Origin: Caenimonas sp. SL110
Lineage (GTDB): Bacteria > Pseudomonadota > Gammaproteobacteria > Burkholderiales > Burkholderiaceae_C
DNA length: 64,000 nt
Direction: 5' to 3'
Assembly: GCF_001044395.1 (NCBI RefSeq)
Contig: NZ_JANU01000039.1
Location: 1-64,000 of the forward strand
This document shows, piece after piece, positions 36,438-54,099 of this stretch. The position numbers were made by a program, and so were the translations under genes. The notes below the pieces were generated by a model. It was not told the origin of the DNA. It saw nothing but the letters and a program-made list of their open reading frames with translations, and ran no database searches. Positions within the stretch are counted from its first letter, which is position 1; every line of letters starts with the position of its first letter.

Positions 36438-36443
36438 TTCGCC

Positions 36444-36989: not shown

Positions 36990-37034
36990 GGATGGGTTCT
37001 CTCGTGGGATGATAGCGGGCAGAACGGGAAATCG

Positions 37035-37667: not shown

Positions 37668-37700
37668 CGTCTGGTGGCTGCGCAACGATCGCTGCCGATT

Positions 37701-37735
37701 CGCGGTGGATGCCGGATCAAGTCCGGCATGACAGC
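37701..37735 (-). repeat. REP-like palindromic element, copy 4
   Basis: ATGCCGG-atcaagt-CCGGCAT (37709-37729) is followed by GACA, so it is inverted. It forms a head-to-head pair with copy 5, the same arrangement as copies 2 and 3. Confidence 0.85.
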
Positions 37736-37744
37736 CCTGGTACT

Positions 37745-37775
37745 TGTCATTGCGGACTCGATCCGCAATCCATGA
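37745..37775 (+). repeat. REP-like palindromic element, copy 5
   Basis: TGTC-ATTGCGG-actcgat-CCGCAAT (stem 37749-37769) is located between the LON-domain gene and the convergent dehydratase gene. It could end both transcripts. Confidence 0.85.
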
Positions 37776-37800
37776 CTTCACTGCGACAGCACCGCAGCGC

Positions 37801-39630
37801 TTACCGCGGCGTGTACTCCGGCACCTGGCTGCGCAGCCAGTCGCGCACAGCCCCGCCCGCCGGAAACGGCCCCGCTTCATTGATCCATTGCGTGACGCCA
37901 GCCACATCGGGCAGCGAGGTTGAATTCTTCGCGACGCGCAGTTTGGGATGCGGCGTCGGCTCGGTGGTCTCGTCGTCGGCAAGCAGTTCCTCATAGAGCT
38001 TCTCGCCCGGCCGCAGGCCCGTATAGGCAATCGGCACTTCCTGCTCGGTGCGCCCCGACAGGCGGATCAGCATGCGAGCCAACTCGACGATCTTCACCGG
38101 CTCGCCCATGTCCAGCACGAAGATCTGGCCCGAACTGCCCATAAGGCCTGCCTGCAGCACCAGCTGCGCCGCTTCAGGAATGGTCATGAAGTAACGCACG
38201 ATGTCCGGATGCGTCACCGTGACAGGACCGCCGCGTGCGATCTGCGAGGTGAACAACGGCACCACGGAACCGCTGGAACCCAGCACATTGCCAAAGCGCA
38301 CCGACACGTATTGCGTGCGATCGAATTGCGCTGCCACGGCCTGCACCATCAGCTCGGCCAGGCGCTTGCTCGCGCCCATCACATTGGTCGGGTTCACCGC
38401 CTTGTCGGTCGAGATCATCACGAATCGACGCGCGCCACACTCACCCGCGACACGCGCCGCATTCAGGGTGCCGATCACATTGGTACGCAGCGCCTCGATC
38501 TCGTTGAGCTCTTCCATCAGCGGCACGTGCTTGTAGGCTGCCGCATGAAGGATCACCGTGGGCTTGTGCTTGTCCGCGATGGCGCGCAGCCGGTCCAGCT
38601 CGCGCACATTGGCGGTGTAGTAGAGCCCGTGCATCTGCGGATGCGAATCGCGCATTTCCTGCTCAAGCCGGTATACCGCGTACTCCGAAACATCGACGCA
38701 CACCAGCCGCCCCACGCCGAAGCGGGCGACCTGCCTGCACAGCTCCGAGCCGATGGAGCCGCCGGCGCCGGTCACCATCACCGTCTGGCCGGAGAACAGG
38801 TCGGCCAGCTGCGCCGTGTCCAGCTGCACCGGTGAGCGTCCCAGCAAATCCTCGAGCTCGATCTTGCGCGGACCGGGGCTGTCGGTCTTGAGCCACTCAT
38901 TGGGCCTGGGCATGGTGAGCAGGGTCAGGCGCGCACCAGCCGCATTCATCAACGCCTCATGCCGCTCGGGCGAACCGGGAGGACTTGCGACCAGCGCCGC
39001 ATCGGCCTGCGCCATCTCGCACACGTCGATCAACGATTCAGACTGGCCCAGCACGCGCACGTTCTGGATGGACCGGCCAACTTCACTGGCGACCGGAGAC
39101 GCAATGGCAACCGGCTCCCATTGGTGCGAACCCTTGAGCGCACGCAGCGCATCGGCGGCATCCTGCAGCGAACCCACGATGACCAGCCTGCGGCCGATGC
39201 CTCGCCCCAGCGTGCGACGCTCGATGAAGGTGCGCCAGCCCGCGCGCGCAGCGCCCAGCAGCACCAGGGCGATCAGCGGCTGCAGCAGCAGCACCGAACG
39301 CGGAAAGTTTTGCATGCGCAGCATCAGGATCGCCGCAGCGGACAGCAGCCCGCCCAGCAGGATACCGACCGCGAGTTGCCGAAGTTCAGGCAGGCCGATG
39401 TAGCTCCAGACCTGCCGATACACGCGAGCCAGCGACAGGCCTGTGGCGTATCCCGCGAGCGTCCATGGAATGCTGTGCCTGGCAAGGCGATCAAACTCAC
39501 CGGGGATGTCGAAGTTGAACCGCAGCCAGAACGCGACCCAGCCGGCGACCAGCACCAGCGCCAGATCCACCGCCACCAGCACCAGCGTGTTCCTAGACAG
39601 TCGCACGCGCACCCGCCTGTTGCAGCGCAC
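37801..39630 (-). CDS. Membrane-bound UDP-N-acetylhexosamine 4,6-dehydratase (FlaA1/CapD/PglF type)
   Basis: A 609-residue protein of the long, membrane-anchored dehydratase class. Four hydrophobic segments lie within about 1-135. A Rossmann-like middle domain (about 145-270) follows. The catalytic SDR domain starts MVTGAGGSIGSELC (about residue 285), with active-site STDKAVNPTNVMGASKR, in which Met replaces the usual Tyr of the YxxxK motif as in PglF-like enzymes. It makes UDP-4-keto-6-deoxy-GlcNAc, the first step to bacillosamine or legionaminic acid. Its N-terminus overlaps the aminotransferase gene by 38 bases; a GTG at 39612 is an alternative start. It is the last gene of the leftward operon. 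Confidence 0.92.
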   Translation of the reverse strand: MRCNRRVRVRLSRNTLVLVAVDLALVLVAGWVAFWLRFNFDIPGEFDRLARHSIPWTLAGYATGLSLARVYRQVWSYIGLPELRQLAVGILLGGLLSAAAILMLRMQNFPRSVLLLQPLIALVLLGAARAGWRTFIERRTLGRGIGRRLVIVGSLQDAADALRALKGSHQWEPVAIASPVASEVGRSIQNVRVLGQSESLIDVCEMAQADAALVASPPGSPERHEALMNAAGARLTLLTMPRPNEWLKTDSPGPRKIELEDLLGRSPVQLDTAQLADLFSGQTVMVTGAGGSIGSELCRQVARFGVGRLVCVDVSEYAVYRLEQEMRDSHPQMHGLYYTANVRELDRLRAIADKHKPTVILHAAAYKHVPLMEELNEIEALRTNVIGTLNAARVAGECGARRFVMISTDKAVNPTNVMGASKRLAELMVQAVAAQFDRTQYVSVRFGNVLGSSGSVVPLFTSQIARGGPVTVTHPDIVRYFMTIPEAAQLVLQAGLMGSSGQIFVLDMGEPVKIVELARMLIRLSGRTEQEVPIAYTGLRPGEKLYEELLADDETTEPTPHPKLRVAKNSTSLPDVAGVTQWINEAGPFPAGGAVRDWLRSQVPEYTPR

Positions 39631-41089
39631 GGCGCAGCTGGTCGATCACACGACCCTGCTGCTCCTGCGTGAGGTTCGAGCCCGAGGGCAAGCACACACC
39701 CGACTCGAAACACGCTTTCGAAAAATCGCCGCCCTCATGCGCGAAGTACGGCGCATCCTTGAAAAGCGGTTGCATGTGCATCGGCTTCCAGACCGGACGC
39801 GCTTCGATGGAATGCCGCTCCAGCGCCCGCAGCAGGCGATCGCGCCTCGACTGTCCATCGGTACCCGGCAATGTGAAGCAACTCAACCACCGCGTGGACC
39901 GGTAGCCCTCGGGTTCCGGCATCCACTCGATCGCCGCATCGGCAAGCTCGGCGCGATAGATGTCGAAGACCTGGCGTCGTTGCTCCACGCGTTGGTCCAG
40001 CACCCGCAGCTGGCCGCGGCCGATGCCCGCCAGCACATTGCTCATGCGGTAGTTGAAGCCGACCTCGATGTGTTCGTAGTGCGCCGCCGGCTCGCGCGCC
40101 TGCGTTGCGAGCTTTCGTGCCCGTTCGGCCATCTGCGCATCGTTGGTCACCAGCATTCCACCGCCGGACGTGGTGATGATCTTGTTGCCGTTGAATGAAA
40201 AGATGCCAATGGCGCCGAAGCTGCCACTGGCGCGCCCCTTGTACTTTGCGCCCAGGGACTCGGCCGCGTCTTCCAGCAGCGGGACGCCATAGCGTTCGCA
40301 CACCGCAAGCAAAGCGTCCATGTCTGCGCTCTGCCCGTACAGGTTCACCACGATCACGCAACGCGGCATGCGGCCTTCGCGCTGCGCCCACTCGAACGCG
40401 CGCTCCAGCGCCTGCGGACACATGTTCCAGGTCTGAGGCTGCGAGTCGATGAAAACGGGCCTCGCATTGCAGTAGAGGATCGGATTGCAGCTGCCCACAA
40501 ACGTCAGCGAGGAACAAAAAACCGTATCACCAGGCTTTACGCCCAGCAGCAGCAATGCCAGATGAATCGCAGCCGTGCCCGAGCTCACCGCTGCGCCGTG
40601 GCCCACGCCCGCGTAACTCGCGAGCTCACGCTCGAAGCCATCGACATGCGGGCCAAGCGGCGCGATCCAGTTCGTCTTGAACGCATCTTCGACAAACGCT
40701 GTTTCTTCTTCGCCCAGGTGCGGCGACGAAAGCCAGATGCGCTGCGACAACTCGCGCCTGAACATGATGTCGACGGCGCGGCCGGCTTCATCGACGACCG
40801 GCAAATGATCGATCTGGTGCTTGTCGAGCACGGCCATCGCAGTGGGCAGGCCTGCATCGAGACCAACGGTGACAGGCGCCTGCTCGGGCAGGGCCGACAC
40901 CGCGGAATCCTCGGGCACGTGACTCAGCGCAGCGCGCCGCAGGTCCCCGTCGGTGAGCGTTCGCTGCAGCGAGCCGTCCGCACGGGTGACGAGCAGGATG
41001 CCGCGACCGGTTGCATTGAGGGCTTCAAGGGCCTGGTGCAGCGTCGCCGTCGCAGGCAGGCAAAGGGCGTTGAACTGGTCGGCGTTCAC
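39593..41089 (-). CDS. CBS-domain / DegT-family sugar aminotransferase fusion
   Basis: 498 residues. A pair of CBS domains (about 1-115; LPATATLHQALEALNATGRG and DKHQIDHLPVVDEAGR) precedes a PLP-dependent DegT/DnrJ/EryC1 aminotransferase (about 120-498). The aminotransferase part, beginning LSSPHLGEEETAFVEDAF and NWIAPLGP, is of the EpsN/PglE kind that aminates C4 of UDP-4-keto-6-deoxy-GlcNAc. The PLP Lys is in SFNGNKIITTSGGGM. It starts at GTG 41089 with AGGAG six bases before it, overlapping the upstream stop (GTGA). CBS domains are usually on the nucleotidyltransferase PtmE in related pathways, so the fusion is unusual. It may sense nucleotides. Confidence 0.88.
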   Translation of the reverse strand: MNADQFNALCLPATATLHQALEALNATGRGILLVTRADGSLQRTLTDGDLRRAALSHVPEDSAVSALPEQAPVTVGLDAGLPTAMAVLDKHQIDHLPVVDEAGRAVDIMFRRELSQRIWLSSPHLGEEETAFVEDAFKTNWIAPLGPHVDGFERELASYAGVGHGAAVSSGTAAIHLALLLLGVKPGDTVFCSSLTFVGSCNPILYCNARPVFIDSQPQTWNMCPQALERAFEWAQREGRMPRCVIVVNLYGQSADMDALLAVCERYGVPLLEDAAESLGAKYKGRASGSFGAIGIFSFNGNKIITTSGGGMLVTNDAQMAERARKLATQAREPAAHYEHIEVGFNYRMSNVLAGIGRGQLRVLDQRVEQRRQVFDIYRAELADAAIEWMPEPEGYRSTRWLSCFTLPGTDGQSRRDRLLRALERHSIEARPVWKPMHMQPLFKDAPYFAHEGGDFSKACFESGVCLPSGSNLTQEQQGRVIDQLRRALQQAGARATV

Positions 41090-41697
41090 TTCAATCTCCT
41101 GGCGGGAACGCCGGCATAAACGCCCGCTTCGGCGATGGGCTGCGTGACGACAGCGCCTGCCCCGATGGTCACGTCGTCGGCAATGCCAATTCCCGGCAAT
41201 ACCGTCGAGCCCGCGCCCACCAGCACACGGCGTCCCACACGCACACCGCCGCCGAGCACGGCGCCCGGCGCGACATGCGAAAACTCGCCGACCACCACAT
41301 CGTGATCGACAACCGCGCCGTGATTGACGATGACCGCGCGGCCTAGCACTGCACCCGGGGCCACCACCGCCTGCGCAGCAATGAAACACCCGGCAGCGAC
41401 GCTGGCATGGACGGAAACCGATGCATGGGGATGAATGACGGTGACGTGCTGTCTGCCGGTGGCGGCAGCCGTTTCTGTCTCACGATTCGCGGCGCGACCG
41501 ATGGCCACATGCAGCGTGCACGACTGCGTGAGCGTCGAATCAATCGCGAGCAGCGCAACACCGGGCAACAACTCACCGCTTGCACGCGCCGGGTTGCGGT
41601 CGCACGCAAACACACGCGACCATGCGCCGCTCGCCAATGCCGCGTCCGCCACCACGCGGCCATGGCCGCCCGCACCCAATATCAGCAATTCCGCCAA
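41086..41697 (-). CDS. NeuD/PglD-type sugar O/N-acyltransferase
   Basis: 203 residues. The N-terminal PglD-like domain (LLILGAGGHGRVVADAAL) is followed by a left-handed beta-helix of hexapeptide repeats (IHPHASVSVHASVAAG ... AVVNHGAVVDHDVVVGEF) and a C-terminal GVPARRLK. It probably acetylates the 4-amino sugar made by the adjacent aminotransferase. The start is TTG 41697, preceded by AGAAGG at suitable spacing; no ATG fits. It overlaps the next gene by four bases. Confidence 0.85.
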   Translation of the reverse strand: MAELLILGAGGHGRVVADAALASGAWSRVFACDRNPARASGELLPGVALLAIDSTLTQSCTLHVAIGRAANRETETAAATGRQHVTVIHPHASVSVHASVAAGCFIAAQAVVAPGAVLGRAVIVNHGAVVDHDVVVGEFSHVAPGAVLGGGVRVGRRVLVGAGSTVLPGIGIADDVTIGAGAVVTQPIAEAGVYAGVPARRLK

Positions 41698-41730
41698 GCG
41701 ATTCGCGCCTTCTTCAGTACGTCAGAAACG

Positions 41731-42873
41731 TCAAAAACTGTTGGTTTTGTCCAGGAGATGAGGGCCTGCCGGCAAGCTTGCCAGCAGTGCGGCGATGCGC
41801 TCGCCCGCCTTCCCGTCACCCCAGAGATTGTCCCACGGCCAACGACCGTGTTCGATGGCAGAACGCAGCGCTGATTCGATGGCATCGCGCTCGGGCGGCA
41901 CATCCGTGACGTTTGGATTGCGCTCGCGCAAACGCTGCCTGTCACCGATGTTGACCACCGGCGTGCCGAATGTGGCCGCTTCAATGATGCCCGCCGAGGA
42001 GTTGCCTGCGAGCACCGCGCAATGCGCAAGCGCCGCGGCAAACTGCGCCCGTGGCAGATGGCGGATTCGAACTGAACCGTGCGCAAGCGCCGCCCTGTCG
42101 AGCGCCTCCAGGATCTCGCGCGAGCCGGCATCGGCATTGGGGTCCAGCCACACCACCGGTAACCCGATGCTTGCCAACGCGGCCAGTAATGCGTCGGCTT
42201 GCGCCCGTGCCTGCCCTGCCTGCTGCACCACTGGGTGGAACATGGCGAGGACGAACGGTGAGTTGCTGCTCAAGCCGAGCACTCGAATCGCTTCGGCTCG
42301 CGGCACGGCGCCAAGCTCAGCAAGCCCATCGAGCCCCGGCGCACCGGTTACGAAGATTCGTGCCTCATCCTCGCCCAATCCGATCAGGCGCTCGCGCGAG
42401 CCCTGCGTCGCGACGAAGTGGTAACTTGCCAGTTTGGAGATCGCGTGACGGATCGGCTCGTCGACCGTGCCCGACCGCTCGCCGCCGTGGATGTGAACGC
42501 AAGCAACACCCGTGTGCAGCGCGGCCAGTGCGCCCGCCAGCATCTCACCGCGATCACCGAGCACCACCAGGAAATCAGGCTTCTCGCGATCGAGCAGTTG
42601 CGTCATCGCGCGCAGACAGTCAGCCAGCGCAAAGGCCATCCCGGCACCTGTGCGGTTGTCCATGTCGAGCGCGAGTTCCGCGCAAATTCGCAGGCCGCTC
42701 GCGCGAACCTCATTGACCGTTTCGCCGTGCGCGCGGCTCAGGTGCATGCCGGTCACCGCAATGCTCAAGTCGATGCCCGGCGTCGATGCGACGCGCTGCA
42801 ACGTCGACTGAAGCAGGCCAAAATCCGCACGCGTGCCAGTGAGGTAAACGATGCGGCGCGGCGCTTGAGTCAT
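41731..42873 (-). CDS. neuC: Hydrolysing UDP-N-acetylhexosamine 2-epimerase (NeuC/LegG type)
   Basis: A 380-residue GT-B-fold epimerase. The N-terminus is IVYLTGTRADFGLLQSTL. The conserved HIHGGERSGTVDEPIRHAIS is the hydrolysing NeuC/LegG signature, and AGNSSAGIIEAATFGTPVVNIG contributes the UDP site. It would release 2-epimerised free sugar, here probably 2,4-diacetamido-2,4,6-trideoxymannose. The start overlaps the stop of the synthase gene by four bases. Confidence 0.92.
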   Translation of the reverse strand: MTQAPRRIVYLTGTRADFGLLQSTLQRVASTPGIDLSIAVTGMHLSRAHGETVNEVRASGLRICAELALDMDNRTGAGMAFALADCLRAMTQLLDREKPDFLVVLGDRGEMLAGALAALHTGVACVHIHGGERSGTVDEPIRHAISKLASYHFVATQGSRERLIGLGEDEARIFVTGAPGLDGLAELGAVPRAEAIRVLGLSSNSPFVLAMFHPVVQQAGQARAQADALLAALASIGLPVVWLDPNADAGSREILEALDRAALAHGSVRIRHLPRAQFAAALAHCAVLAGNSSAGIIEAATFGTPVVNIGDRQRLRERNPNVTDVPPERDAIESALRSAIEHGRWPWDNLWGDGKAGERIAALLASLPAGPHLLDKTNSF

Positions 42874-43913
42874 GCGCCGCTCCGGCCTTCAACATCAAGA
42901 TCGCTCCACTGCAGCACGGTGCCCGCAGGCATGTTCGTCCTGGCCTTAGCACCCACCACCTGCGGCAGCTCGCGAGGCGCCATGCCTGTCGCGGGACGAC
43001 GGCAAGCCAGCATCGCCTCCGTCATTCGCGTTCCTGCCTTGATGTCGACTGCAGCGACAACGCTGCGACGCGCCACGCGGGCCGTGTTCCGTTCTTCAGC
43101 GGTAGGCGCCTTCACACCGTCACCCAGCATCGCCGACACGCGCCGGATGCCGGCCACCATGCGCGCGAACTCAGCGGGCTCCAGCGAGGCACTGTGATCG
43201 GGACCGGGCAGTTCGTTGTCGAGTGTGAGGTGCTTCTCGATCACGGTCGCGCCAAGGGCCACCGCCGCCAGATCGGCCTCTATCCCCAGGCTGTGGTCGG
43301 AGTAGCCGATCGCCACGCCCAGGTCGCGCGCCATCGAGACGATGGCCGTGAGATTGAGCGCGCTGTCAGGCGCAGGATAAGCAGAGGTGCAATGAAACAC
43401 GGTGACATCGACCAGACTGCCGCGCGCCTGGCCGATCCAGTCGAGCGCCTCGCGGATTTCTTCCATCGTTGCCATGCCAGTGGAAACCAGCAGCGGAAGT
43501 TTCTGCGAAGCCGCATGTGCCACCAGCGCGCGATGCGTCAGCTCGCCCGACGAGAGCTTGATGCGCCTGACGCCAAGCTGCACCAGCATGTCCACTGCAT
43601 TCACTGAAAACGGCGTCGAGAAAAACTCGATCCCGATCGCATCGCAATGCGCCTTGAGGGCCTCGTGCTGCTCGCGTGACAACTCCAGCGCGCGCAGCAT
43701 GGCGAACTGGTCCTGCGCGCCGGTCGCCTTGGCCTGGTAGTCGGCCGTGGGTGCGCCCGGCACGACCAGGTCTTCGGCGCGAAAGGTCTGGAACTTCACC
43801 GCGTCTGCGCCAGCCGCATGGGCCGCATCGCACAAGCGCAGCGCCATCTGCAGATCGCCGTTGTGGTTGACGCCTGCCTCCGCTATGACGAACACGTGAT
43901 GGGGCGGCAACAT
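42870..43913 (-). CDS. neuB: Nonulosonic acid synthase (NeuB/LegI type)
   Basis: A 347-residue PEP-dependent synthase. The TIM barrel starts VFVIAEAGVNHNGDLQMA, with IEFFSTPFSVNAVDML, KLSSGELTH and IGYSDHSLGIEADLAAVALG. A C-terminal antifreeze-like SAF domain (about 280-345) completes the usual NeuB design. It condenses PEP with a mannosamine-type sugar to a nine-carbon acid. With the dehydratase and aminotransferase, the product is probably legionaminic-type. ATG 43913 is chosen because the ATG at 43931 overlaps the previous gene and adds six residues. Confidence 0.93.
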   Translation of the reverse strand: MLPPHHVFVIAEAGVNHNGDLQMALRLCDAAHAAGADAVKFQTFRAEDLVVPGAPTADYQAKATGAQDQFAMLRALELSREQHEALKAHCDAIGIEFFSTPFSVNAVDMLVQLGVRRIKLSSGELTHRALVAHAASQKLPLLVSTGMATMEEIREALDWIGQARGSLVDVTVFHCTSAYPAPDSALNLTAIVSMARDLGVAIGYSDHSLGIEADLAAVALGATVIEKHLTLDNELPGPDHSASLEPAEFARMVAGIRRVSAMLGDGVKAPTAEERNTARVARRSVVAAVDIKAGTRMTEAMLACRRPATGMAPRELPQVVGAKARTNMPAGTVLQWSDLDVEGRSGA

Positions 43914-43915
43914 CG

Positions 43916-44704
43916 CTACCACACCGTCCATCCACCATCGACGACCAGGTTGTGGCCGGTCACGTACTTCGACGCATCGCTTGCGAGGTAGCGCATGGCA
44001 TTGGCCATGTCATCGGCCTGGGCCATGCGGCCCAGTGGCGCGCGGCTGGCGTAGTTCGCGACGAAGGTTTCGTTCTGCCCGCTGAAGACGCCGCCCGGCG
44101 TGATCGCGTTCACGCGGACGCCCTTGCTGCCCCAGTAGCTGGCGAGGTACTGGGTCAGGCCCCACAGTCCGGCCTTGCTGGCCGCGTAGATGGCGGGCGT
44201 GTTGATCGCGCGGCCCAGGTACAGCGAGCCTTCGTAGATGCGCTGATCCGGTGCGACCACGCCATAGATCGAAATCGTGTTGATGATGCTGCCCTTGCCG
44301 CGCGCGGCCATCGGCGCGCCGAACGCCTGCGCGCAGAGCATGGCGCCGGTCAGGTTCACGCCCATGACCTCGTTCCAGTCGGCGAGTGGAAAAGTCTCGA
44401 AGGGTTCGAAGAAGTTTTCGGATTTGGTGGCGGCGTTGTTCAGCAGCGCGTCGGCCACACCCCACTTCTCCTGCAACGACACGCGCGCCCGCATCACTTC
44501 GTCCGGCCTGGAGATATCGGCGACGCAATGCACCAGCTCGCCCGTTGCCGGCCCCAGGTTCTGCTCCAGCAGCGCAGCATCGCGATCGATCGCGAAGACG
44601 CGCGCGCCCGCCGCCAGAAAGTTGCGGGTGACTTCGCTTCCGATGATGCCCGCCGCTCCGGTCAGCACGACCACCTTGCCATCAAGCCCGAAGGCATCAC
44701 TCAT
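43916..44704 (-). CDS. SDR-family oxidoreductase (PtmA-like)
   Basis: A 262-residue NAD(P)-dependent short-chain dehydrogenase. The cofactor motif is LTGAAGIIGSEVT, and NNAA is at about residue 90. The catalytic Ser is in NTISIYG and the Tyr-Lys pair in PAIYAASKAG. The C-terminus is VTGHNLVVDGGWT. PtmA of flagellin-glycan loci belongs to the same group and shares this neighbourhood. The exact substrate is unknown. It is coupled to the synthetase gene by ATGA overlap. Confidence 0.88.
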   Translation of the reverse strand: MSDAFGLDGKVVVLTGAAGIIGSEVTRNFLAAGARVFAIDRDAALLEQNLGPATGELVHCVADISRPDEVMRARVSLQEKWGVADALLNNAATKSENFFEPFETFPLADWNEVMGVNLTGAMLCAQAFGAPMAARGKGSIINTISIYGVVAPDQRIYEGSLYLGRAINTPAIYAASKAGLWGLTQYLASYWGSKGVRVNAITPGGVFSGQNETFVANYASRAPLGRMAQADDMANAMRYLASDASKYVTGHNLVVDGGWTVW

Positions 44705-45396
44705 GTTGTTCCCTTTTGTCTTTTCATCAGCAATTCGACAAATTCAAAATCCAGCGGATGGTCGATGTCGATCGAACGCTCACGCGGCATCACATGCAGG
44801 CGAATGCGCGGATGCGCCCAGAGCGACGAGGCCAGTGTGCGCCGGTGCCACACATAGATCGACGCATTCATCGCATACACCCTGGGTGCGAGCTGACGGC
44901 CTGCCACTTCGCTCGCCGGCGGACACACGCGCTCATAAAAGCCGCCCGGCTTTTGCTCGACCATGTTGAAGTACGGATTCTTGTCCGATTCGTAACCCGT
45001 GATCACTGCATCGGTGTCTTCGTCCAGCAGCGCGTTGCAGGCGACGATATCGCTCACTTCCCGCAAAGGCGAAGTCGGATCGAGGTCGATGATGCGATCG
45101 ACCGGCATGTCGTTGGCTTCCACCCACTCCACCAGATGCTGGATCACCGGCAACTTCGCGGCAGTCGATGTCGCAAGTTCGGCAGGACGCACGAAGGGCA
45201 CAGTCGCACCATGGGCGCGCGCCACTTCTGCAATCTGCTCATCGTCGGTCGAGACGTAGATTCCACGCGCCAGGCCGCTGCGCTGCGCCTGTTCTATCGT
45301 CCATGCGATCAGCGGCTTGCCCAGCAAGGGACGGATATTTTTGCCGGGCAGGCCCTGCGAGCCGCCGCGTGCGCAGATGGTGATGATGGTGTTCAT
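44701..45396 (-). CDS. neuA: CMP-nonulosonic acid synthetase (NeuA/LegF type)
   Basis: A 231-residue cytidylyltransferase. The CTP-binding start is ICARGGSQGLPGKNIRPL, followed by LIAWTIEQAQRSG and STDDEQIAEVA. The LDPTSPLREVSDI segment is typical of CMP-sialate and CMP-legionaminate synthetases. The C-terminal part ends in DIDHPLDFEFVELLM, a metal-binding region. The start at 45396 follows the family start; the frame continues upstream into the oxidoreductase gene. It provides the activated sugar for a glycosyltransferase. Confidence 0.92.
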   Translation of the reverse strand: MNTIITICARGGSQGLPGKNIRPLLGKPLIAWTIEQAQRSGLARGIYVSTDDEQIAEVARAHGATVPFVRPAELATSTAAKLPVIQHLVEWVEANDMPVDRIIDLDPTSPLREVSDIVACNALLDEDTDAVITGYESDKNPYFNMVEQKPGGFYERVCPPASEVAGRQLAPRVYAMNASIYVWHRRTLASSLWAHPRIRLHVMPRERSIDIDHPLDFEFVELLMKRQKGTT

Positions 45397-46424
45397 TGCG
45401 CGGCCCCACCAGCAGTACGCCAGGCAGTTGCTTCGAGGGCGATCATCCAGCGAGTGACATGCATGGCGCGCTGCAGGTCGTAGCGCGTCTTCGATCCCGT
45501 GCGCCATGCATGGAGCAGGTCCTGCATCGCCAATGGGTAGGTGCCGGCCATGTCCCAATCCGATGCTTGCGTTTCAATGACGTGGCTCCCGTTTGCATCC
45601 TGCAGCGTGAGCTGCCGTCCCACGATATCCAGGCGCAAGGTTCCCCGGTCGCCCACCACCAGGTACTCGCGCACCGGCTTTCGGCTCACATAATCGAGGC
45701 CGACCTGCACCGGCAGTCCGCTCTTCATCGACAGCGTGATCGCCGCCGCATCGTCACTGTCAATCTGCAGGCTGCCACTGTTCGAGGCCGCAGCCTGTCC
45801 CATGCCGATTTCGCCAAAGAGGTATGCCGCGCTGTCGATCTCATGCACCAGGTCGAAGATCACGCCGCCGCCATCATCACGGTGCGCGCTGTAGCTCTGG
45901 CGGTAATCGCGACCGGCGCGCCAGTCGGGCAACCACTGGCCGACCTGCAGGGTGGCGCGAGCGATGCGCCCTGCTGCTTCGCTTTCGCATGCGGCCTTGA
46001 GCTTGTTCACCGCCCCCAGGTAGCGCAGGTTGCAACCGACCACACTGGGGCGATCCCACCCCGCCTCGATCCGGCGTTGGATCGCGCGGAGCGAAACCGC
46101 ATCAATGACCACGGGCTTCTCGATGTAGAGCGCATCCACGCAATCCATCAGCGCATCCAGATCAGCCGCATGCTGGGCCGACACGCTGCAAACCACTGCG
46201 ATCTGCGGCCTTGCCGCAAGCCCCGCCGCGACGCAGGCGACCGGCGTCGCAGCAAACTGGCGCGCCCACCCCACGGACTCCTCGCGCGTGGCGACCATGA
46301 AAAGCTCGGCTCCTGGCACCAGCGCGCGAATGTTTTGCGCATGCCGCCGCCCTATCGACCCGGCTCCTGTCAACAGCACCCGTGGACGGTCGCTCGCGGC
46401 TCGGTTTTGCATAATGGCGGTCAT
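45393..46424 (-). CDS. Gfo/Idh/MocA-family oxidoreductase
   Basis: 343 residues. The N-terminal Rossmann domain is VLLTGAGSIGRRHAQNIRAL, with EKPVV near residue 110 carrying the usual catalytic Lys. The C-terminal substrate domain includes DGGGVIFDLVHEID. Such enzymes oxidise or reduce sugars or sugar nucleotides. It is the first gene of the leftward operon and probably tailors the nonulosonic acid or a partner sugar. GGGGA before ATG 46424 supports this start. Only 32 bases separate it from the divergent gene. Confidence 0.88.
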   Translation of the reverse strand: MTAIMQNRAASDRPRVLLTGAGSIGRRHAQNIRALVPGAELFMVATREESVGWARQFAATPVACVAAGLAARPQIAVVCSVSAQHAADLDALMDCVDALYIEKPVVIDAVSLRAIQRRIEAGWDRPSVVGCNLRYLGAVNKLKAACESEAAGRIARATLQVGQWLPDWRAGRDYRQSYSAHRDDGGGVIFDLVHEIDSAAYLFGEIGMGQAAASNSGSLQIDSDDAAAITLSMKSGLPVQVGLDYVSRKPVREYLVVGDRGTLRLDIVGRQLTLQDANGSHVIETQASDWDMAGTYPLAMQDLLHAWRTGSKTRYDLQRAMHVTRWMIALEATAWRTAGGAAQ

Positions 46425-46456
46425 TATTTCATTCCCCGGAACACCCCGGACAAACG

Positions 46457-47776
46457 ATGCCTGATCCTGTCTTGCATATCGTCCATTGCATTGACACGGA
46501 AGGTCCACTGCAAGAGCCGCTAGCCGCCACTTTCGATCGCCTGAAAGGCATTTTCGGGCTCACCATCGAGCCGACCGCCGACAACCTCAAGCGCCTGCAG
46601 CAGCGCCAGATCGACCTGGGCGGACTCGAAGCCGAGGTGGCGCAGGTCATCAAGCCTGAACTGCTGGCCTACAACGGCGACTGGGATGCCGTGGGCGCGA
46701 TGCTTGAAGACGCGATGGGCGAGCCCTTTCGCACCGAAACCATCGACGACTTCGGCGGCGGCTGGATCTACAGCTGGCACGTGATGGACCACGTCGGTTA
46801 CGCCAGCAATCCACGCAACAAGGCCCTGGGCTATGGCGCGGTGTTGCGCTTCTACCGCGAGGCGGTGAAGCAGTCAGGGCCAGCGGACGAGATCAACTGG
46901 CACTTCCACCCGCTGTTTCCCGACGGCGATCCGCTCAAGGCCGCGACGTCGTACACCAACAGTTACGCGCAGCTCAACCAGATCCTGGCCCGCAGGCTGA
47001 TCGACCACGGCTGGTTTCCGGTTGCGAATCGCCCGGGTTTTCACAGCGAGCGGCCCGACAGCCACGCTTTCCTGGAGCAATGGATTCCGTTCGACTATGC
47101 CAACCAGTCCTACGAAGAAGAGTCGGGCCAGAAGGATCTGCGCGGCGGCCGCTTTGGCGACTGGCGGCGCGCGCCATCATCTTGGGTCGGCTATCGGCCT
47201 TCGCACCGCGACTACCAGCAGCCGGGCGACATGAACCGCCACATCTTCCGCTGCCTGAATGTGGGCACGCGGTTTCGCGAGCTGGGCGAGCAACATGTGG
47301 ATCAGGCGTTTGAGGATGCCCGGCGCACTGGCAGCGCGATTCTTGCGTTTGCGGATCACGACTACCGCGACATCCGACCCGATGTGCGACGCGTGCGTGA
47401 GATGGTGCAGGCGGCCCGATCGCGGTTTCCCGATGTGAAGATCAGGTTCAGCGGTGCGGTCGATGCAGCGCGCGCACATCTGGCTTCACGCGGCGAATTG
47501 GCCCGTCACGCGCCGCTCGCGCTGGCGCTGTCCATCGAAGACGCCGTGCTCAGCGTGCGTTGCACTGCCGGCGAGTGTTTCGGCCCGCAGCCCTTTCTTG
47601 CCTACAAGACAAAGAGCGGCCTGTACATCCACGACAACTTCGATCTGCAGGAGCCCGAGCGGCACTGGACCTACATCTTCGACTCGCAGACCGTTCCCCT
47701 GGACGAGATCGAGTCCATTGCGGTTGCAAGCGCCGGCGCCGACGGCAGCGTTGCGGTGACAGGGCGCGTGTTGTGA
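46457..47776 (+). CDS. Unknown protein, possibly polysaccharide-deacetylase-like
   Basis: 439 residues with no signal peptide or membrane segment. LHIVHCIDTEGP at residue 6, INWHFHPLFPDGD near 150, FHSERPDSHAFLEQ near 195 and ILAFADHDYRDIRPD near 295 place Asp and His residues as in NodB-like metal-dependent deacetylase barrels. The overall match is weak. The C-terminal ~100 residues look like a separate beta-rich domain. It is the first gene of a coupled four-gene operon divergent from the nonulosonate genes. A glycan-modifying role is inferred from context only. Confidence 0.7.
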   Translation: MPDPVLHIVHCIDTEGPLQEPLAATFDRLKGIFGLTIEPTADNLKRLQQRQIDLGGLEAEVAQVIKPELLAYNGDWDAVGAMLEDAMGEPFRTETIDDFGGGWIYSWHVMDHVGYASNPRNKALGYGAVLRFYREAVKQSGPADEINWHFHPLFPDGDPLKAATSYTNSYAQLNQILARRLIDHGWFPVANRPGFHSERPDSHAFLEQWIPFDYANQSYEEESGQKDLRGGRFGDWRRAPSSWVGYRPSHRDYQQPGDMNRHIFRCLNVGTRFRELGEQHVDQAFEDARRTGSAILAFADHDYRDIRPDVRRVREMVQAARSRFPDVKIRFSGAVDAARAHLASRGELARHAPLALALSIEDAVLSVRCTAGECFGPQPFLAYKTKSGLYIHDNFDLQEPERHWTYIFDSQTVPLDEIESIAVASAGADGSVAVTGRVL

Positions 47777-49008
47777 AGCGAGTCCTCGTCGCCGCATATG
47801 GCGGCGCGCATGTGGCTGCGGCCATGCCGCTGTACCGCGAACTGCTGGCTGCGGGGCTGCAACCGGTGATGCTGGGCCTCACAACAGCGGCAGACACGCT
47901 GCGCCGCCACGGCATCCCCTTCGTGCACTTTCTGGACCACGTCGATATCGGCGATCCGGCCGTGGAACGATGGGGCAATTTCCTGTGCGAGTTTCATCAT
48001 CGTGACGGCATCGGCATCACGCGAGATGAATCGATGGCCTACCTGGGCGCGAGCATGGCCGAGCGGGTCGCGGATGTCGGCGAAGAAGCGGCTCTTGCCA
48101 GTTACAGGGCAAGGGGACTGAACGCGCTGCTTCCGGTTCGCACGTTGAAGCGAATCATCGAAGCGCAGCAGATCGACGCCGTCATCGCCACCGACTCGCC
48201 TCGCGCGGAACGGGCAGCACTCAACGCAGCCGTCCAGATGGGGCTGCCTTCGGTTTGCCTGCTCACGAGTTTTCCCCACATCGGCCTGGATTACCTCCAG
48301 CGCAGTGACAACGGCGCTGTCATTTGCGTGCTCAATGAGCGGATTCGCCAGCAACTCATTGACGCTGGACGCCAGCCTGCAAGTGTGATCGTCACAGGCA
48401 ACCCCGCCTTTGACGCACTGATCGCACCGGATGCGCAAGCGCGCCGTTCAGAGCTTCGCAAGCAGGCAGGAATTCCTCCCGAGCAACGCGCCGTCCTCTG
48501 GGCCGAACAACCCGAGCCGGGTAATCCTGACCTTCCCATTGCCATGCGGGAAGGCCTCGCGGCAACCTGCGCAAGCCACGGATGGAAGTTCATCGCGCGC
48601 CTGCATCCCTCCAGCCAGGCCGGCGCGAGCATCACCTTGCCCGAGGGTGCGCTGCTGAGCCCTCGCACGCAAGGCGTGCGCGACGCCCTGCTCATGTGCG
48701 ATGCGGTCGTGACTTTCACATCCACCATCGGATTCGAGGCGCTGGTTCTCGACAAGCCGGTTGTCGTCGCCGCCGTTTCGCAGTACAGCCATTTCGTGGA
48801 TTACCGCGAAGACGATGGTGTCTTCGTCGTTCCATCGATGTCTGCGGTGGAACCGGCGCTCGCCAGTTTTTTCGCCGATGACGAACACGCCCAGCGCCTC
48901 GCACGCTTTCGCCGTACGCTCCCACAGAACGGGCAAGCTGCCCGCGCCATCGTCCAGTGCCTGTTGGCGCAGGACACGACGCCTTCCTTCACGACTGCAA
49001 CGCCATGA
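47773..49008 (+). CDS. GT-B-like glycosyl/glycerophosphotransferase superfamily protein
   Basis: 411 residues with two Rossmann-like halves. The N-terminus is RVLVAAYGGAHVAAAMPLYREL, and VIVTGNPAFDALI lies between the halves. The C-terminal half has RLHPSSQAGASI, DAVVTFTSTIGFEALVLDKPVV and PVVVAAVSQYSHF, resembling the acceptor and nucleotide sites of UDP-sugar epimerases, sialyltransferase-like and TagB/CDP-glycerol transferase folds. It starts at GTG 47773, overlapping the previous stop (GTGA). It is the only obvious glycosyltransferase-like gene in the locus and so a candidate to transfer the CMP-nonulosonate, which is inference. Confidence 0.75.
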   Translation: MKRVLVAAYGGAHVAAAMPLYRELLAAGLQPVMLGLTTAADTLRRHGIPFVHFLDHVDIGDPAVERWGNFLCEFHHRDGIGITRDESMAYLGASMAERVADVGEEAALASYRARGLNALLPVRTLKRIIEAQQIDAVIATDSPRAERAALNAAVQMGLPSVCLLTSFPHIGLDYLQRSDNGAVICVLNERIRQQLIDAGRQPASVIVTGNPAFDALIAPDAQARRSELRKQAGIPPEQRAVLWAEQPEPGNPDLPIAMREGLAATCASHGWKFIARLHPSSQAGASITLPEGALLSPRTQGVRDALLMCDAVVTFTSTIGFEALVLDKPVVVAAVSQYSHFVDYREDDGVFVVPSMSAVEPALASFFADDEHAQRLARFRRTLPQNGQAARAIVQCLLAQDTTPSFTTATP

Positions 49009-49760
49009 ATTCCCCCGCAACACCGCCGCCCCAGGTTGACCTCCACGCCAAGGGTGACGCGTATCTCGCCACCTCGTACAGCCAGGAGAACCGGCCGCTC
49101 AGTCCGTATGTGAAGGTCATGTCCAGGCACCTGCACGACACCGTGTTCGGCGGGCGCAGCGGAAGATTGCTCGACATCGGTTGCGGTCGAGGCGACCAGA
49201 TGCGCGCCTTCGCAGAACTGGGCCTTGAATGCAGCGGCACCGATATCGCCAACAGTGCCTCGCAACTGGCGAGCGGCTTCGATGTTCGCGTGGCCAACCT
49301 TGAAGTCGATCCGCCGCCGTTTGGCGACAGCCAGTTCGACTTTGTGTACAGCAAGTCGGTCATCGAACACATGCGCCAGCCCGACCGATTCCTGGACACC
49401 GCGCTCACCTCGCTCAAGCCCGGAGGCACAGCCTGCATCCTCACGCCGAGCTGGTTTCACACGTACCGTATCTTCTACATGGAGTACACGCACGTCACGC
49501 CCTTCACCATCGAGTCGCTCAAGACAGCGATGACCATGGCCGGCTTTGTTGACGTGGAAGTGCACTATTTCTACCAGCTGCCTTTTCTGTGGAAGAACCG
49601 CGCGTGGATGCCGCTCATCAAGGCGCTGGGTGCACTGACCGGCATGCTGGGTCTGCCCTACCGGCCTATCCGCAACATGCCGTGGCCCACCCAGATGAAC
49701 AACGTCATCCGCTTCTCGCACGACGTGATGCTGATGGGCGTGGGACGACGCGCACCATGA
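49005..49760 (+). CDS. Class I SAM-dependent methyltransferase
   Basis: 251 residues. SAM-binding motif I is LLDIGCGRGDQMRAFAELG near residue 50, the motif II region is DFVYSKSVIEHM, and motif III is ALTSLKPGGTACIL. A C-terminal extension with hydrophobic and aromatic residues follows (about 170-235). It probably methylates a sugar of the locus glycan. It is coupled to the upstream gene by ATGA overlap and to the next gene the same way. Confidence 0.88.
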   Translation: MNSPATPPPQVDLHAKGDAYLATSYSQENRPLSPYVKVMSRHLHDTVFGGRSGRLLDIGCGRGDQMRAFAELGLECSGTDIANSASQLASGFDVRVANLEVDPPPFGDSQFDFVYSKSVIEHMRQPDRFLDTALTSLKPGGTACILTPSWFHTYRIFYMEYTHVTPFTIESLKTAMTMAGFVDVEVHYFYQLPFLWKNRAWMPLIKALGALTGMLGLPYRPIRNMPWPTQMNNVIRFSHDVMLMGVGRRAP

Positions 49761-50872
49761 CCACCATCGGGCTCGCGGACCTCGATCCGACGGGTCACAC
49801 CTCGTTTTCTTTCTACGACCTCCTGCCGGGCAACCAGGTGACGGTGGAGGGCGCGCCGGATGCGGCGGACGCGCTCGCACTCGCTACCCGGTTGCTGCGC
49901 ACCGATCTGCTGGAAGCAGGCGATCAAGAGATCGACAGCTTCGCGGCCCTCCTGGTCACGCACGGCCATCTCTTGCCGCCCTCGGGAGAATTCAAGCAAC
50001 TCGCCGACGCTACAGCGCGCGGCTTTGCAGCCTTGATCGGCAATGAGGCCCGGCGACCGCGACGCATGCGCCTGACCCGGCTCTCACTGATGCTGCGCGT
50101 CGTGCTGGATCGCACCGAGTCCACCGCTGGCGTGCTGTCCGACACGACGCTGCCCTGCAAGAGCCCGTGGGATTTCATCGCGATGGATGGGTCATCACAG
50201 GACGGATGGGTGGCAAGCTGCGACGAGAACAACTTCCGTCGCCTGGAGGCAGGTGCCTGCGTGTGGAGTCGCCGGCTCGGCCTGCCAACGCAGCTCGACA
50301 GACTGGGTGACGGCCTGTGGGTCGGGTCGCACTACAGCGACGGCGGGTTCATCGTGACGCAGGCGGAATCCGCAGATCCGCAAGTGCTGGAAATCGCGCA
50401 CAGCTGCCCCCTGGTGCTGGCTTTCGAATTTGGCGGTACGCGGTATGCGCTGGACTCACGTGGCGCATTGGGCAAACTCGCTGGCGATCAAGTGGGGCCT
50501 GCGCTGCTGCGACTGCCGGGCACGATTCATCGGGCGCGGATCATCGGCGACAGCCTGTACGCCTTCGATTGGGGACAGGCCGGCGTCGGGTTCCGCATCG
50601 ACCTGCGAACCCTGCAGGCCGTCACGATTCGCACGGGCGACATCATCGTGTGCAACGACATCTGCGCGCAGGGTGACTGGCTTTACGGCATCTGCAAACT
50701 GCAAGGCCGAGTCTTCAAGATGACACGCGACTGGACACCAGTTTCGACACGCCTGGGTGCGGGCACCGGACCGGGTCAGCTGCTGGACCCGATCATGATT
50801 CGTTGTGAGGCGGACGTGCTGGGCGTGGTGAACTGGTTTTCGTCGCGGATCGTGCGGCTGCCCGCGTTCTAG
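49757..50872 (+). CDS. Unknown protein of the glycan locus
   Basis: 371 residues with no signal peptide or transmembrane segment. The N-terminal ~110 residues look helical. After that, short beta-like segments repeat with Gly-Trp/Tyr turns (DGWVASCDENNF, DGLWVGSHYSDGGF, GDSLYAFDWGQAG, GDWLYGICKLQGRVF), suggesting a beta-propeller-like or related repeated beta fold. I do not recognise a family. It is the last gene of the coupled rightward operon and is followed by a REP-like element. Confidence 0.7.
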   Translation: MTTIGLADLDPTGHTSFSFYDLLPGNQVTVEGAPDAADALALATRLLRTDLLEAGDQEIDSFAALLVTHGHLLPPSGEFKQLADATARGFAALIGNEARRPRRMRLTRLSLMLRVVLDRTESTAGVLSDTTLPCKSPWDFIAMDGSSQDGWVASCDENNFRRLEAGACVWSRRLGLPTQLDRLGDGLWVGSHYSDGGFIVTQAESADPQVLEIAHSCPLVLAFEFGGTRYALDSRGALGKLAGDQVGPALLRLPGTIHRARIIGDSLYAFDWGQAGVGFRIDLRTLQAVTIRTGDIIVCNDICAQGDWLYGICKLQGRVFKMTRDWTPVSTRLGAGTGPGQLLDPIMIRCEADVLGVVNWFSSRIVRLPAF

Positions 50873-50876
50873 ATTC

Positions 50877-50910
50877 AGCTGTCATTGCGGGCTTGACCCG
50901 CAATCCATGT
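50877..50910 (+). repeat. REP-like palindromic element, copy 6
   Basis: TGTC-ATTGCGGG-cttga-CCCGCAAT-CC (stem 50884-50904) lies between the convergent unknown gene and asnB, where it may serve as a transcript boundary. Confidence 0.85.
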
Positions 50911-50938
50911 CTTCAGCGACCGCTGCCATGTTGCATCG

Positions 50939-52726
50939 TCACAAAAACTCCGCCGCCCAGATCGCCACCGCAGCCAACGCCCTCAACTCGCGCGTGTAGT
51001 TCGCCGCGCCATCGCGATGTGCATCCAGCATCCGGTCGATCGCCTCTGGCCTGAACAGCGACTGCAGCAAGGGACTGTCACGGAGCGTCTGGCGCAACCA
51101 TCCGTGGCTTTCGAACCGGAACCAGTCGCCCACCGGCACGGTGAACATCTGCTTCTTTCGATAGGCCAGATCCTGCCCGATCAGCGGCGTCACGGCCCGC
51201 TTGAACCAATGCTTCTTGTCGCCCAGGTGCAACTTGGTCTGGGCGCGCGAGCGAAACGCGAACTCCATCATTCGCCAGTCGAGAAACGGTGTCCGTGCTT
51301 CTATCGACACCGCCATGCCCATGCGATCGGGCTTGACCAGGTTGTTGCCCGAGAGCAGCAATTGCATGTCCAGATAGAGCGCCTGGTTCAATCGACTGAA
51401 GTGCGCCGACTCCTCAAACCACGGTTTGGCCGCCTGCGCAAAACTGTCAATGCCCGCCAGCTGGCTCGCGATTCCGGGTCGATACAACGCCATCTTGTCT
51501 TCGGGTGAAAACAGCGAGATCGAATCGAAATAACTGCGCTGGAAAACGTCATCATCCAGGGTGTCGACATCGGGCCTGCCGAAGTAGTCGGCATACTTTT
51601 CGTAGCCCGCAAAAAGTTCATCGCCGCCATCACCCGTCAGCACGACCTTGACATGGCGCGCCGTAAGCTCGCTCACGCGCAAGGTCGGCATGAACGACGC
51701 ATCGCCGTGCGGCTGGTCCAGGTGATGCAGCACCTGCGGCCAGCGGTCGAGCATGTTCAGCTCGGCGGTCTCGCTCGTGTGGTCGCAGCCGAAACGCCGC
51801 GCAGCTTCGGCTGCAAAAGCCGACTCGTCATAGCGCTGATCGGCAAAGCCGATGCAGAAGGTCTTGACCGGCCTGTCCACATGACGCGCCATCAGGCCCA
51901 CGATGGTGCTCGAATCAACCCCGCCCGACAGGAAGGCACCCCAGGGCACATCGGCGCGAAGCCGAATGCGCGTCGCATCATCCAGCGTCGCCAAGAACTC
52001 TTCGCTCCACGCGCCGAAGTCATGATCGCGCTCTTGCTGGTCGGCCAGATTCCACCAGCGATGGGTTTGCACTCCGCTGCGCGTGAACTTCATCCAGGTG
52101 CCCGGCATCACATGGCGGATGCCCTGCCACACCGTCCACGGCGCGGGGATGTAGTTGAAGGTGAGGTAGTGGTGGATCGCTTCGAGGTCGATGGCGGACA
52201 GACCCTCACGCGCGCGGGTGAACGGCAGCATCGCCTTCATTTCAGAGGCAAACACCACGCGAGCGCCATCGTCGGCGACGTACAGGGGCTTCACGCCAAT
52301 GCGATCGCGCATCAGGTACATCGCGTCCTCGCGTGCGTCGTCGACAGCAATCGCGAACATCCCGTTCAGGCGCTCCAGCCCCTTGATGCCCTGCTGCTCG
52401 TACAGGCGCAGGATCACCTCGGTGTCCGAATGCGACCTGAGTTGCACACCCTGCGCGCGCAGTTCGTCGGCAAGCTCGATGTGATTGAAGATCTCGCCGT
52501 TCTGCACAACCGCGATCTGGCCGTCGTCGGAGACAAACGGCTGATGCCCGCCGCTAATGTCAATGATCGACAGGCGGCGGTTTCCGATCGCCACGCCGCG
52601 CTGCGGCTGGCTCCAGATGCCCTCGTCGTCCGGTCCGCGGTGCACGAGCTTGCTCGCCATCACAGCCAGTGCCTCATCGGGCATGGCGCGCCCTGCACGG
52701 TCCCAGTAGCCGAAGATGCCGCACAT
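50939..52726 (-). CDS. asnB: Asparagine synthetase B-type glutamine amidotransferase
   Basis: 595 residues. The N-terminal glutaminase nucleophile Cys is in MCGIFGYWDRAG, with RRLSIIDISGGHQP and QNGEIFN. The synthetase half has the PP-motif FLSGGVDSSTIVGLMARH and GDGGDELFAGYEKYADYF. In surface-polysaccharide loci such proteins often amidate sugar acids rather than make free asparagine. Which applies here is not shown. It is leftward, with the sugar transferase gene starting three bases upstream. Confidence 0.92.
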   Translation of the reverse strand: MCGIFGYWDRAGRAMPDEALAVMASKLVHRGPDDEGIWSQPQRGVAIGNRRLSIIDISGGHQPFVSDDGQIAVVQNGEIFNHIELADELRAQGVQLRSHSDTEVILRLYEQQGIKGLERLNGMFAIAVDDAREDAMYLMRDRIGVKPLYVADDGARVVFASEMKAMLPFTRAREGLSAIDLEAIHHYLTFNYIPAPWTVWQGIRHVMPGTWMKFTRSGVQTHRWWNLADQQERDHDFGAWSEEFLATLDDATRIRLRADVPWGAFLSGGVDSSTIVGLMARHVDRPVKTFCIGFADQRYDESAFAAEAARRFGCDHTSETAELNMLDRWPQVLHHLDQPHGDASFMPTLRVSELTARHVKVVLTGDGGDELFAGYEKYADYFGRPDVDTLDDDVFQRSYFDSISLFSPEDKMALYRPGIASQLAGIDSFAQAAKPWFEESAHFSRLNQALYLDMQLLLSGNNLVKPDRMGMAVSIEARTPFLDWRMMEFAFRSRAQTKLHLGDKKHWFKRAVTPLIGQDLAYRKKQMFTVPVGDWFRFESHGWLRQTLRDSPLLQSLFRPEAIDRMLDAHRDGAANYTRELRALAAVAIWAAEFL

Positions 52727-52729
52727 GGT

Positions 52730-54087: not shown

Positions 54088-54099
54088 GGCAGGCGCTGA

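Follow-up and report, generated by a model that had tools for sequence, protein, structure and literature searches.

Many bacteria carry nonulosonic acids (NulOs) on their flagella, capsules and O-antigens; to our knowledge, the enzymes that give these sugars unusual N-substituents are little known, bar a few cases such as PtmG and PtmH. In Nod-factor synthesis, a NodB-like enzyme (i.e. NodB) has methyltransferase and sulfotransferase partners (i.e. NodS and NoeE). NDST1 combines deacetylase and sulfotransferase. In legionaminic-acid clusters, PtmG and PtmH of Campylobacter and ORF 28 and ORF 8 of Legionella alter the 5-N-acetyl group at the stage of the cytidine monophosphate (CMP) sugar, with N-methylation following; PtmG converts CMP-Leg5Ac7Ac to an acetimidoyl form which PtmH N-methylates (PMC3766260), and ORF 8 of Legionella N-methylates legionaminic acid on the acetimidoyl group (PMC13306086). 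PtmG and PtmH thus set a precedent for changing an N-substituent at the CMP-sugar stage. Four overlapping genes (A, B, C and D; positions 46457 to 50872) were analysed here in Caenimonas sp. SL110, within the first 64,000 nucleotides of contig NZ_JANU01000039.1 (i.e. the window). Judged by profile searches, A is a member of a sequence family new to Pfam and NCBIfam with a known, predicted fold, and it likely performs a known type of reaction on an unusual substrate. We give about an even chance to the reading that A removes an N-acyl group from a legionaminic-type NulO while B adds a sugar, C methylates and D binds or modifies.

Gene A (46457..47776, plus strand) encodes 439 residues, modelled as a NodB-fold barrel (residues ~1-348) followed by a C-terminal beta-sandwich (351-439), and is annotated here as a putative de-N-acylase. 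The original prediction, made from the DNA and its translations, had been able to name no family for A or D, and database searches agreed, with nothing above chance in Pfam or NCBIfam and nothing among PDB sequences. For A, no Pfam family was matched at an E-value of 1 and no NCBIfam family was found; PF01522 (CE4) was absent from 39/39 members at an E-value of 0.1, and the best Pfam E-value over these 39 members (window included) was 0.012. Comparison with PDB sequences produced nothing at an E-value of 1 with the single sequence and 0.71 at best with a profile. The underlying alignment held 39 rows, i.e. the window and 38 of 41 usable stretches from loci with a relative of A (numbered with the prefix L), with both stretches of L012 and that of L034 omitted as near copies; the stretches of L020, L022, L039, L042 and L045 fell outside it owing to an open reading frame (ORF) filter.

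Structure prediction and fold searching, the checks suggested for both unnamed proteins, predicted a NodB-like barrel for A and a six-bladed propeller for D. The AlphaFold2 model of A, built on the 39-row alignment, had a predicted local distance difference test score (pLDDT) of 93.4 and a predicted template-modelling score (pTM) of 0.92. Its best structural match was 3lm3 (Z 14.6, 243 residues, 3.8 Å), with further matches to HP0310 (Z 14.4), 3rxz (13.8), 1z7a (13.3), 3s6o (13.3), NDST1 (13.3), Agd3 (13.2), PuuE (3cl6, 13.1) and an insect chitin deacetylase (12.2), so that an early hint of NodB likeness in A was borne out by Z-scores of 13-14.6 to NodB-fold deacetylases, from search lists that leave room for further families. 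Foldseek returned two matches at an E-value of <=0.001, namely HP0310 of H. pylori and 3s6o. The beta-sandwich at residues 351-439 scored Z 7.7-8.6 against assorted sandwiches, values too low for an assignment.

The likeness of A to the CE4 NodB-fold deacetylases (e.g. HP0310) lies in the beta/alpha barrel, an acidic pair ending the first strand, a His pair and a late His. It differs from them in a D-T-E-G motif 1, an H-x-H motif 2, a gap of ~134 residues between these motifs and the added beta-sandwich: where canonical CE4 enzymes have DD and H-x3-H, A has D13-T-E15 and H149-F-H151, and the barrel is present without a match to the family profile. Agd3 (the founder of CE18) and NDST1 resemble A in combining a NodB-like barrel with a sequence remote from CE4, and motifs 1 and 2 of Agd3 are, as in A, widely spaced (>120 residues; PMC7229062). 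In that source CE18 is defined by D-D, H-x3-H, a late His and an N-terminal CBM87 domain, whereas A has D-T-E and H-x-H, its barrel comes first and no N-terminal CBM87-like domain precedes it. Given the lack of CE4 profile similarity and the H-x-H motif, A was filed neither as CE4 nor as CE18. A further departs from Agd3 and NDST1 in being tied to NulO genes, in its probable cytoplasmic location and in having any sulfotransferase partner as a separate gene.

Residues D13 and E15 were kept in all 37 rows that reach them, H149, D213, H301 and D302 in 39/39 rows, and H151 and R192 in 38/39. In the model, D13/E15, H149/H151, R192 and H301 lie at or just beyond the C-ends of strands 5-14, 145-150, 190-193 and 293-301, and D213 lies close to where strand 212-216 begins; D13, E15, H149, H151, R192 and H301 are taken as the putative active-site residues. 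The D-x-acid form of the first motif has a precedent in HP0310, which uses Asp12/Asp14/His86/His90/His247 (PMC3084791), while in NDST1 D319 is the base, D320, H389 and H393 bind the metal and H529 is the acid (PMC10864358). On this modelled arrangement, A is proposed to work like CE4 and CE18 enzymes. A different catalytic role was considered, in which A would be a hydrolase or lyase that cleaves another bond (amidine, formyl, lactam or glycoside), or would bind NulO without catalysis while retaining the NodB-like barrel. The related barrels do include PuuE and, with lower scores, the glycosidases GH57 (Z 11.0) and GH38 (Z 8.1-9.4), and A is without the canonical CE4 motifs, but conservation of its acidic and His residues is complete or nearly so across the rows, which would not be expected of a decayed enzyme, and deacetylase folds outscore glycosidases, so that we regard this role as unlikely.

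The preferred reading, de-N-acylation of a NulO by A, draws on the company that the gene keeps. A scan of one genome per species (84,980 species, many of the records being metagenome-assembled genomes [MAGs]), which reaches fairly close relatives of A, found 42 loci scattered over bacteria and archaea, with hosts among Comamonadaceae, Vibrio, Moritella, Achromobacter, Planctomycetes, Nitrospinota, Bacillota, Treponema, Helicobacter and archaea including Asgard. With the own genome counted each time, A was present in 2/60 genomes of its own genus, 2/399 of an order sample and 3/369 of a class sample; the second match in the order sample was doubtful (E-value 3e-4 over 48 residues, and no match to window proteins at 1e-5) and was dropped. 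This sporadic spread resembles that of gene clusters exchanged among lineages. Plasmid records searched with A gave no match, and one of 16 pattern matches in viral contigs was confirmed. A 115-kb IMG/VR contig (L086, 6001-7239) carries a relative of A (38%) with a methyltransferase match after it. Two other records were irregular: a TGA is reported in frame within the A gene at G695:C47:30942-32273 (in L083), and the A gene of a halobacterial MAG (L042:1415-2634) is split over two frames.

Flanks of up to 9 kb on each side of A were compared with the window proteins as queries at 1e-8. NeuA, NeuB or NeuC lay beside A in 36/42 loci (NeuB in 29/42, NeuA in 32/42), and 12 of the 13 genomes without NeuB in the flank had NeuB elsewhere, bringing the genomes with NeuB to 41/42; in the exception, the archaeal MAG L042, NeuA and NeuC matches adjoin A. 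In the class sample NeuB was counted in 148/369 genomes (a Pfam count including weak and partial matches), and all three genomes with A (one being the own genome) had NeuB on the same contig, 2-15 kb off; the set of A loci and the class sample differ in make-up, and the contrast in NeuB is therefore indicative. NeuB occurs once in the own 4.72-Mb genome, in which a random 20-kb stretch would hold it ~0.4% of the time. Across the loci, the NulO is the most constant substrate candidate. It could instead be argued that the substrate of A is a different N-acetyl sugar within this glycan (e.g. N-acetylglucosamine or a bacillosamine-type sugar) and that the NulO genes lie nearby as co-builders of one polymer. 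N-acetylhexosamines are the substrates of most known NodB-fold enzymes (e.g. NDST1 and Agd3), and a PglC-type priming transferase is near A in 6/42 loci. The common denominator over bacteria and archaea is, however, the NulO set and not a single glycan type, and A often sits within the core operon, lying between NeuA and SDR in Vibrio intestinalis (L028) and sharing 4 bp with NeuA in L009 and L036. Such a substrate is accordingly judged improbable.

The immediate neighbours of A were called from a longest-ORF map, which misplaces or misses some genes (e.g. A of L020, B and C of L004). On the same strand and no more than 150 bp from A were a methyltransferase cluster (MT10) in 10/42 loci, a sulfotransferase cluster in 8/42 (three with a 4-bp overlap), a Wzy_C-like protein of ~870 residues in 7/42 and B in 8/42 besides the window (B of L004 being missed). 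One member of each cluster other than B was scanned: MT10 (PF08241) and the sulfotransferase of L040 (PF13469, 97 bits) were over the cut-off, and the Wzy_C stretch was just below its own Pfam cut-off. The sulfotransferase is downstream of A in L022, L025, L031, L032 and L040, upstream in L006, L010 and L012, and also present in L083; such pairs extend to Asgard archaeal MAGs (L025 and L040). Two loci outside the first scan were similar in content: L083 combines a methyltransferase, a sulfotransferase, A, a 27% match to B, NeuA, NeuB and NeuC with NeuD-, LegC- and PglF-like genes in one stretch, and in L084 A is accompanied by matches to NeuA, SDR, Gfo and PglF. The ~870-residue protein, found at L010:10254-12854 and in nine more loci, matches Wzy_C (O-antigen ligase) weakly over one stretch and has no assigned family over much of the remainder, and a further cluster, in five mapped loci, contains a 425-residue protein (L016:1094-2368) with no Pfam match at 0.01.

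A tree of the A rows, with hand-assigned labels, two long rows and bootstrapping that had not settled, placed the window in an 18-row set (support 100/100) holding all 11 rows labelled for B, Wzy or D. None of the 13 rows labelled for a methyltransferase or sulfotransferase fell in this clade; they made up 13 of the 21 rows outside it without forming a single clade (3 changes as compared to 11.1 in shuffles, with 0/500 shuffles as low). Two rows, L006_3992 and L010_3953, have B 3' of A and were grouped with the methyltransferase and sulfotransferase rows owing to a sulfotransferase just upstream. Two A genes occur in one cluster in L006, L010 and L027, one of them within the window's clade and the other beyond it, and likewise in L012 as judged by identity (L012 being absent from the tree). 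The paired paralogues were read as suggesting two positional specificities.

These patterns bear on whether A-D might serve the assembly or export of a NulO polymer (i.e. acceptor building or control of polymerisation), and A would leave the NulO itself unmodified. In A's own clade 11/18 rows have B, a Wzy_C-like protein or D 3' of A, as such a role would have it, but the 13/21 rows outside the clade have modifying enzymes beside A, and L006, L010, L027 and (by identity) L012 carry one A of each kind per cluster; an assembly or export role is thus considered highly improbable. The same data invite a bolder version of the de-N-acylation reading. By analogy with NodB-NodS or NDST, A would found a carbohydrate-amidase family for bacterial and archaeal NulOs in which N-acetyl is stripped and the amine is methylated or sulfated, giving N-alkylated and N-sulfated NulOs, with paralogues serving different amino positions. 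We put this forward as a tentative idea that we regard as unlikely.

Within the window the four genes are coupled as originally described, with correct coordinates, lengths (439 and 371 residues for the two unnamed proteins) and ATGA/GTGA junctions: each junction is a 4-bp overlap, with GTGA between A and B (47773) and ATGA between B and C (49005) and between C and D (49757). A-D are the sole plus-strand block between two minus-strand blocks, with the Gfo/Idh gene of the NulO operon on one side and AsnB on the other; from this position, a separate transcription unit is likely. The GC content of the region is ordinary (62.7-65.6% over 36001-54000). Maximal hydrophobicity over 19-residue stretches was 1.15-1.53 for A-D as compared to 2.6-2.9 in nearby membrane proteins, and as strongly hydrophobic stretches are lacking, the four proteins are probably cytoplasmic, with sugars in nucleotide-linked, free or lipid-linked form as their substrates.

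Joint conservation of the four genes, a check suggested by the original prediction, did not hold in strict form. Homologues of A, B, C and D are each present in further genomes, but the strict A-B-C-D order was found only in the window and in Caenimonas koreensis (L004; identities of 77, 71, 86 and 59%, respectively). Among the 42 A loci, B was present in 12, D in 15 and C-like matches in five; L013 and L014 carry matches to B, C and D as well, but dispersed, with C matches of 31-33% identity. Strict conservation was therefore rejected in favour of a widely shared A, with B and D as frequent partners.

The assignments of B as GT-B-like and of C as a methyltransferase were upheld. Gene B (47773..49008, plus strand, GTG start, 411 residues) encodes a GT-B-type transferase with PF04464 (Glyphos_transf, TagB/TagF type) at 31.3 bits (cut-off 22.1) and is a candidate NulO or glycan transferase; matches under the cut-off were to Epimerase_2 and to the BFO_1060 glycosyltransferase family NF046086 (29.7 bits, cut-off 200). 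R276, H278, P279, S317 and T318 were invariant in 17/17 rows, the HP and ST motifs thus being conserved, and a D/E-D/E-G stretch is found late in B, though not in every row. SpsB and the Tannerella TagB-domain candidates for NulO transfer resemble B in being TagB-type GT-B proteins beside Leg genes with an HP motif, while the score against the BFO_1060 model sets B apart. According to PMC7439481, HP motifs are among those discussed for sialyltransferases, and SpsB is not needed for Leg transfer in B. subtilis. Gene C (49005..49760, plus strand, 251 residues) encodes a class I S-adenosylmethionine-dependent methyltransferase (PF13489, 71.8 bits, cut-off 27).

Gene D (49757..50872, plus strand) encodes 371 residues, modelled (pLDDT 94.6, pTM 0.92) as a helical N-terminal domain (~1-118) and a six-bladed beta-propeller (~121-371), which accounts for the Gly-aromatic beta segments noted earlier. 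Matches to D were at chance level, with no Pfam family over the cut-off and no NCBIfam family; the best Pfam match among 15 members (window included) was DUF5128, a 6-bladed propeller (E-value 0.027), and PDB sequences gave 0.78 with the single sequence and 0.24 with a profile, an NHL-repeat chain being at 0.42. The propeller (121-371) scored Z 22 against NHL domains and ~19-20 against lactonases, SMP-30-like ones among them, in a fold search that barely covered the helical domain. D thus shares the six-bladed fold of NHL/SMP-30-type propellers (Z 19-22) without matching their sequence profiles, and is unlike them in its extra helical domain, lack of a sequence family and own set of conserved residues. 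In all 15 rows, cut at estimated starts and omitting a fragment from L017, D139, Q179, D181, R261, N300, D301, K314 and D344 were kept and are spread along the propeller, a distribution that suggests a ligand or catalytic centre in the model. D occurs in 15/42 A loci, 13 of these with NeuA, NeuB or NeuC nearby and 11 with B; it was found in 1/369 genomes of the class sample (the own genome), and three pattern matches in viral contigs were not confirmed.

The adjoining minus-strand NulO operon begins with a Gfo/Idh/MocA oxidoreductase (45393..46508 as an ORF from GTG; by eye, an ATG at ~46424 is the likelier start, giving a ~32-bp spacer to A). It continues with a NeuA-type cytidylyltransferase (44701..45558; PF02348; ORF from TTG, with the Pfam match beginning at residue 59) and an SDR oxidoreductase (43916..44704; best NCBIfam NF006619, 180.4 bits, under the cut-off of 255), here labelled PtmA-like. 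These are followed by a NeuB-type NulO synthase (42870..43931; TIGR03569 over cut-off), a NeuC-type epimerase (41731..42873; TIGR03568 over cut-off), a NeuD/PglD-type sugar acetyltransferase (41086..41697; TIGR03570 over cut-off), a CBS domain with a LegC-like aminotransferase stretch (39596..41059; TIGR04181 at 371.7 bits, below the cut-off of 420, yet the best family for this stretch) and a membrane CapD/PglF-like 4,6-dehydratase (37801..39630; PF02719), all on the minus strand. This gene set is expected to make a CMP-legionaminic-type acid without A-D. The idea that A replaces a missing core enzyme was rejected, as the window holds the full core gene set of the pathway (described in PMC7439481), and A-D are accordingly viewed as accessory. 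The original proposal that A-D complete or modify a NulO glycan stands in its link to NulO (36/42 loci beside NeuA/B/C-type genes), while modification is likelier than completion given the full CMP-NulO set. The leg list of Yersinia ruckeri O1 (PMC5552943) has the same core genes and none listed between the cytidylyltransferase and the dehydrogenase; judged from locus-tag numbering, this cluster would be without A. On the far side of A-D, AsnB (50939-52726, minus strand) opens a block (50939-55554) of an AsnB-type amidotransferase, a PglC-type sugar transferase, an HpcH/HpaI aldolase-like protein (no NCBIfam match at 1e-5) and a MurJ-like protein, which recurs with A and B in L004, L005, L007, L083 and, in part, L013.

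From the gene structure, the predicted folds of A and D, the conserved residues, the NulO association and the neighbour pattern, a reaction, its substrate, an order of steps and roles for B, C and D may be proposed. A would be an amidohydrolase of the NodB fold, located in the cytoplasm and probably dependent on a metal, that cleaves an N-acyl group, most likely N-acetyl, from a legionaminic-type NulO in the form of a CMP-sugar, a free sugar or a lipid-linked glycan. A partner would then substitute the freed amine or a group next to it: C at this locus, and in other clusters a different methyltransferase or a sulfotransferase. B would transfer a sugar, possibly the NulO, onto the growing glycan in GT-B fashion, and D, whose six-bladed propeller has conserved polar residues and which is probably an enzyme or binding protein, would bind or modify the same glycan. 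The placing of A beside methyltransferases and sulfotransferases recalls NodB-NodS-NoeE and NDST1, by analogy with which N-acetyl would be stripped and the amine decorated. The NodB/NodS/NoeE set differs from that of A in acting on another sugar and in sharing no family above cut-off; the sole NCBIfam match of the L025 sulfotransferase was to NoeE (21.6 of 500 bits, far below cut-off). The PtmG route passes from acetyl through acetimidoyl to the methylated form, whereas A has a deacetylase-type fold, a contrast of route and fold.

Several observations weigh against this proposal. The known N-methylation of legionaminic acid proceeds without a described free-amine step, so that a methyltransferase neighbour needs no deacetylation, and a sulfotransferase is absent from the window. 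No NeuA, NeuB or NeuC match was present in the fetched flanks of 6/42 loci (L005, L007, L017, L021, L040 and L041); the flanks of L005 and L021 are full-length, and L021 has a NeuC-like match only at 3e-5. Motif 2 is H-x-H instead of H-x3-H, and in the divergent relative L041 Arg replaces H151 and His replaces R192. The Foldseek TM-scores were modest (0.33-0.34 on A as query). An hhalign comparison of A with 32 CE4 candidates gave a probability of 0.1, a weak negative in that these rows were chosen automatically by ORF position from the stretches of the A relatives, 16/32 showing the motif-1 pattern and some possibly being in wrong frames.

In the literature on deacetylases or sulfotransferases together with legionaminic or nonulosonic acid (subscription papers being outside its scope), no description of the A family was found in the available text, nor one of a de-N-acylation route to N-substituted NulOs or of N-sulfated NulOs. 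Sulfated sialic acid is reportedly present in vertebrates. NulOs and sulfated glycoconjugates occur together in sludge polymers with no sulfated NulO mentioned (PMC10483923), and an unnamed deacetylase is noted in pseudaminic islands of Aeromonas (PMC7874193). The A family offers a handle on whether sialic-acid-like sugars lose an N-acyl group in bacteria before being decorated anew. If true, de-N-acylation by A would also explain the recurrent sulfotransferase and methyltransferase genes beside it, and the family may reveal an undescribed chemical modification of bacterial sialic acids.

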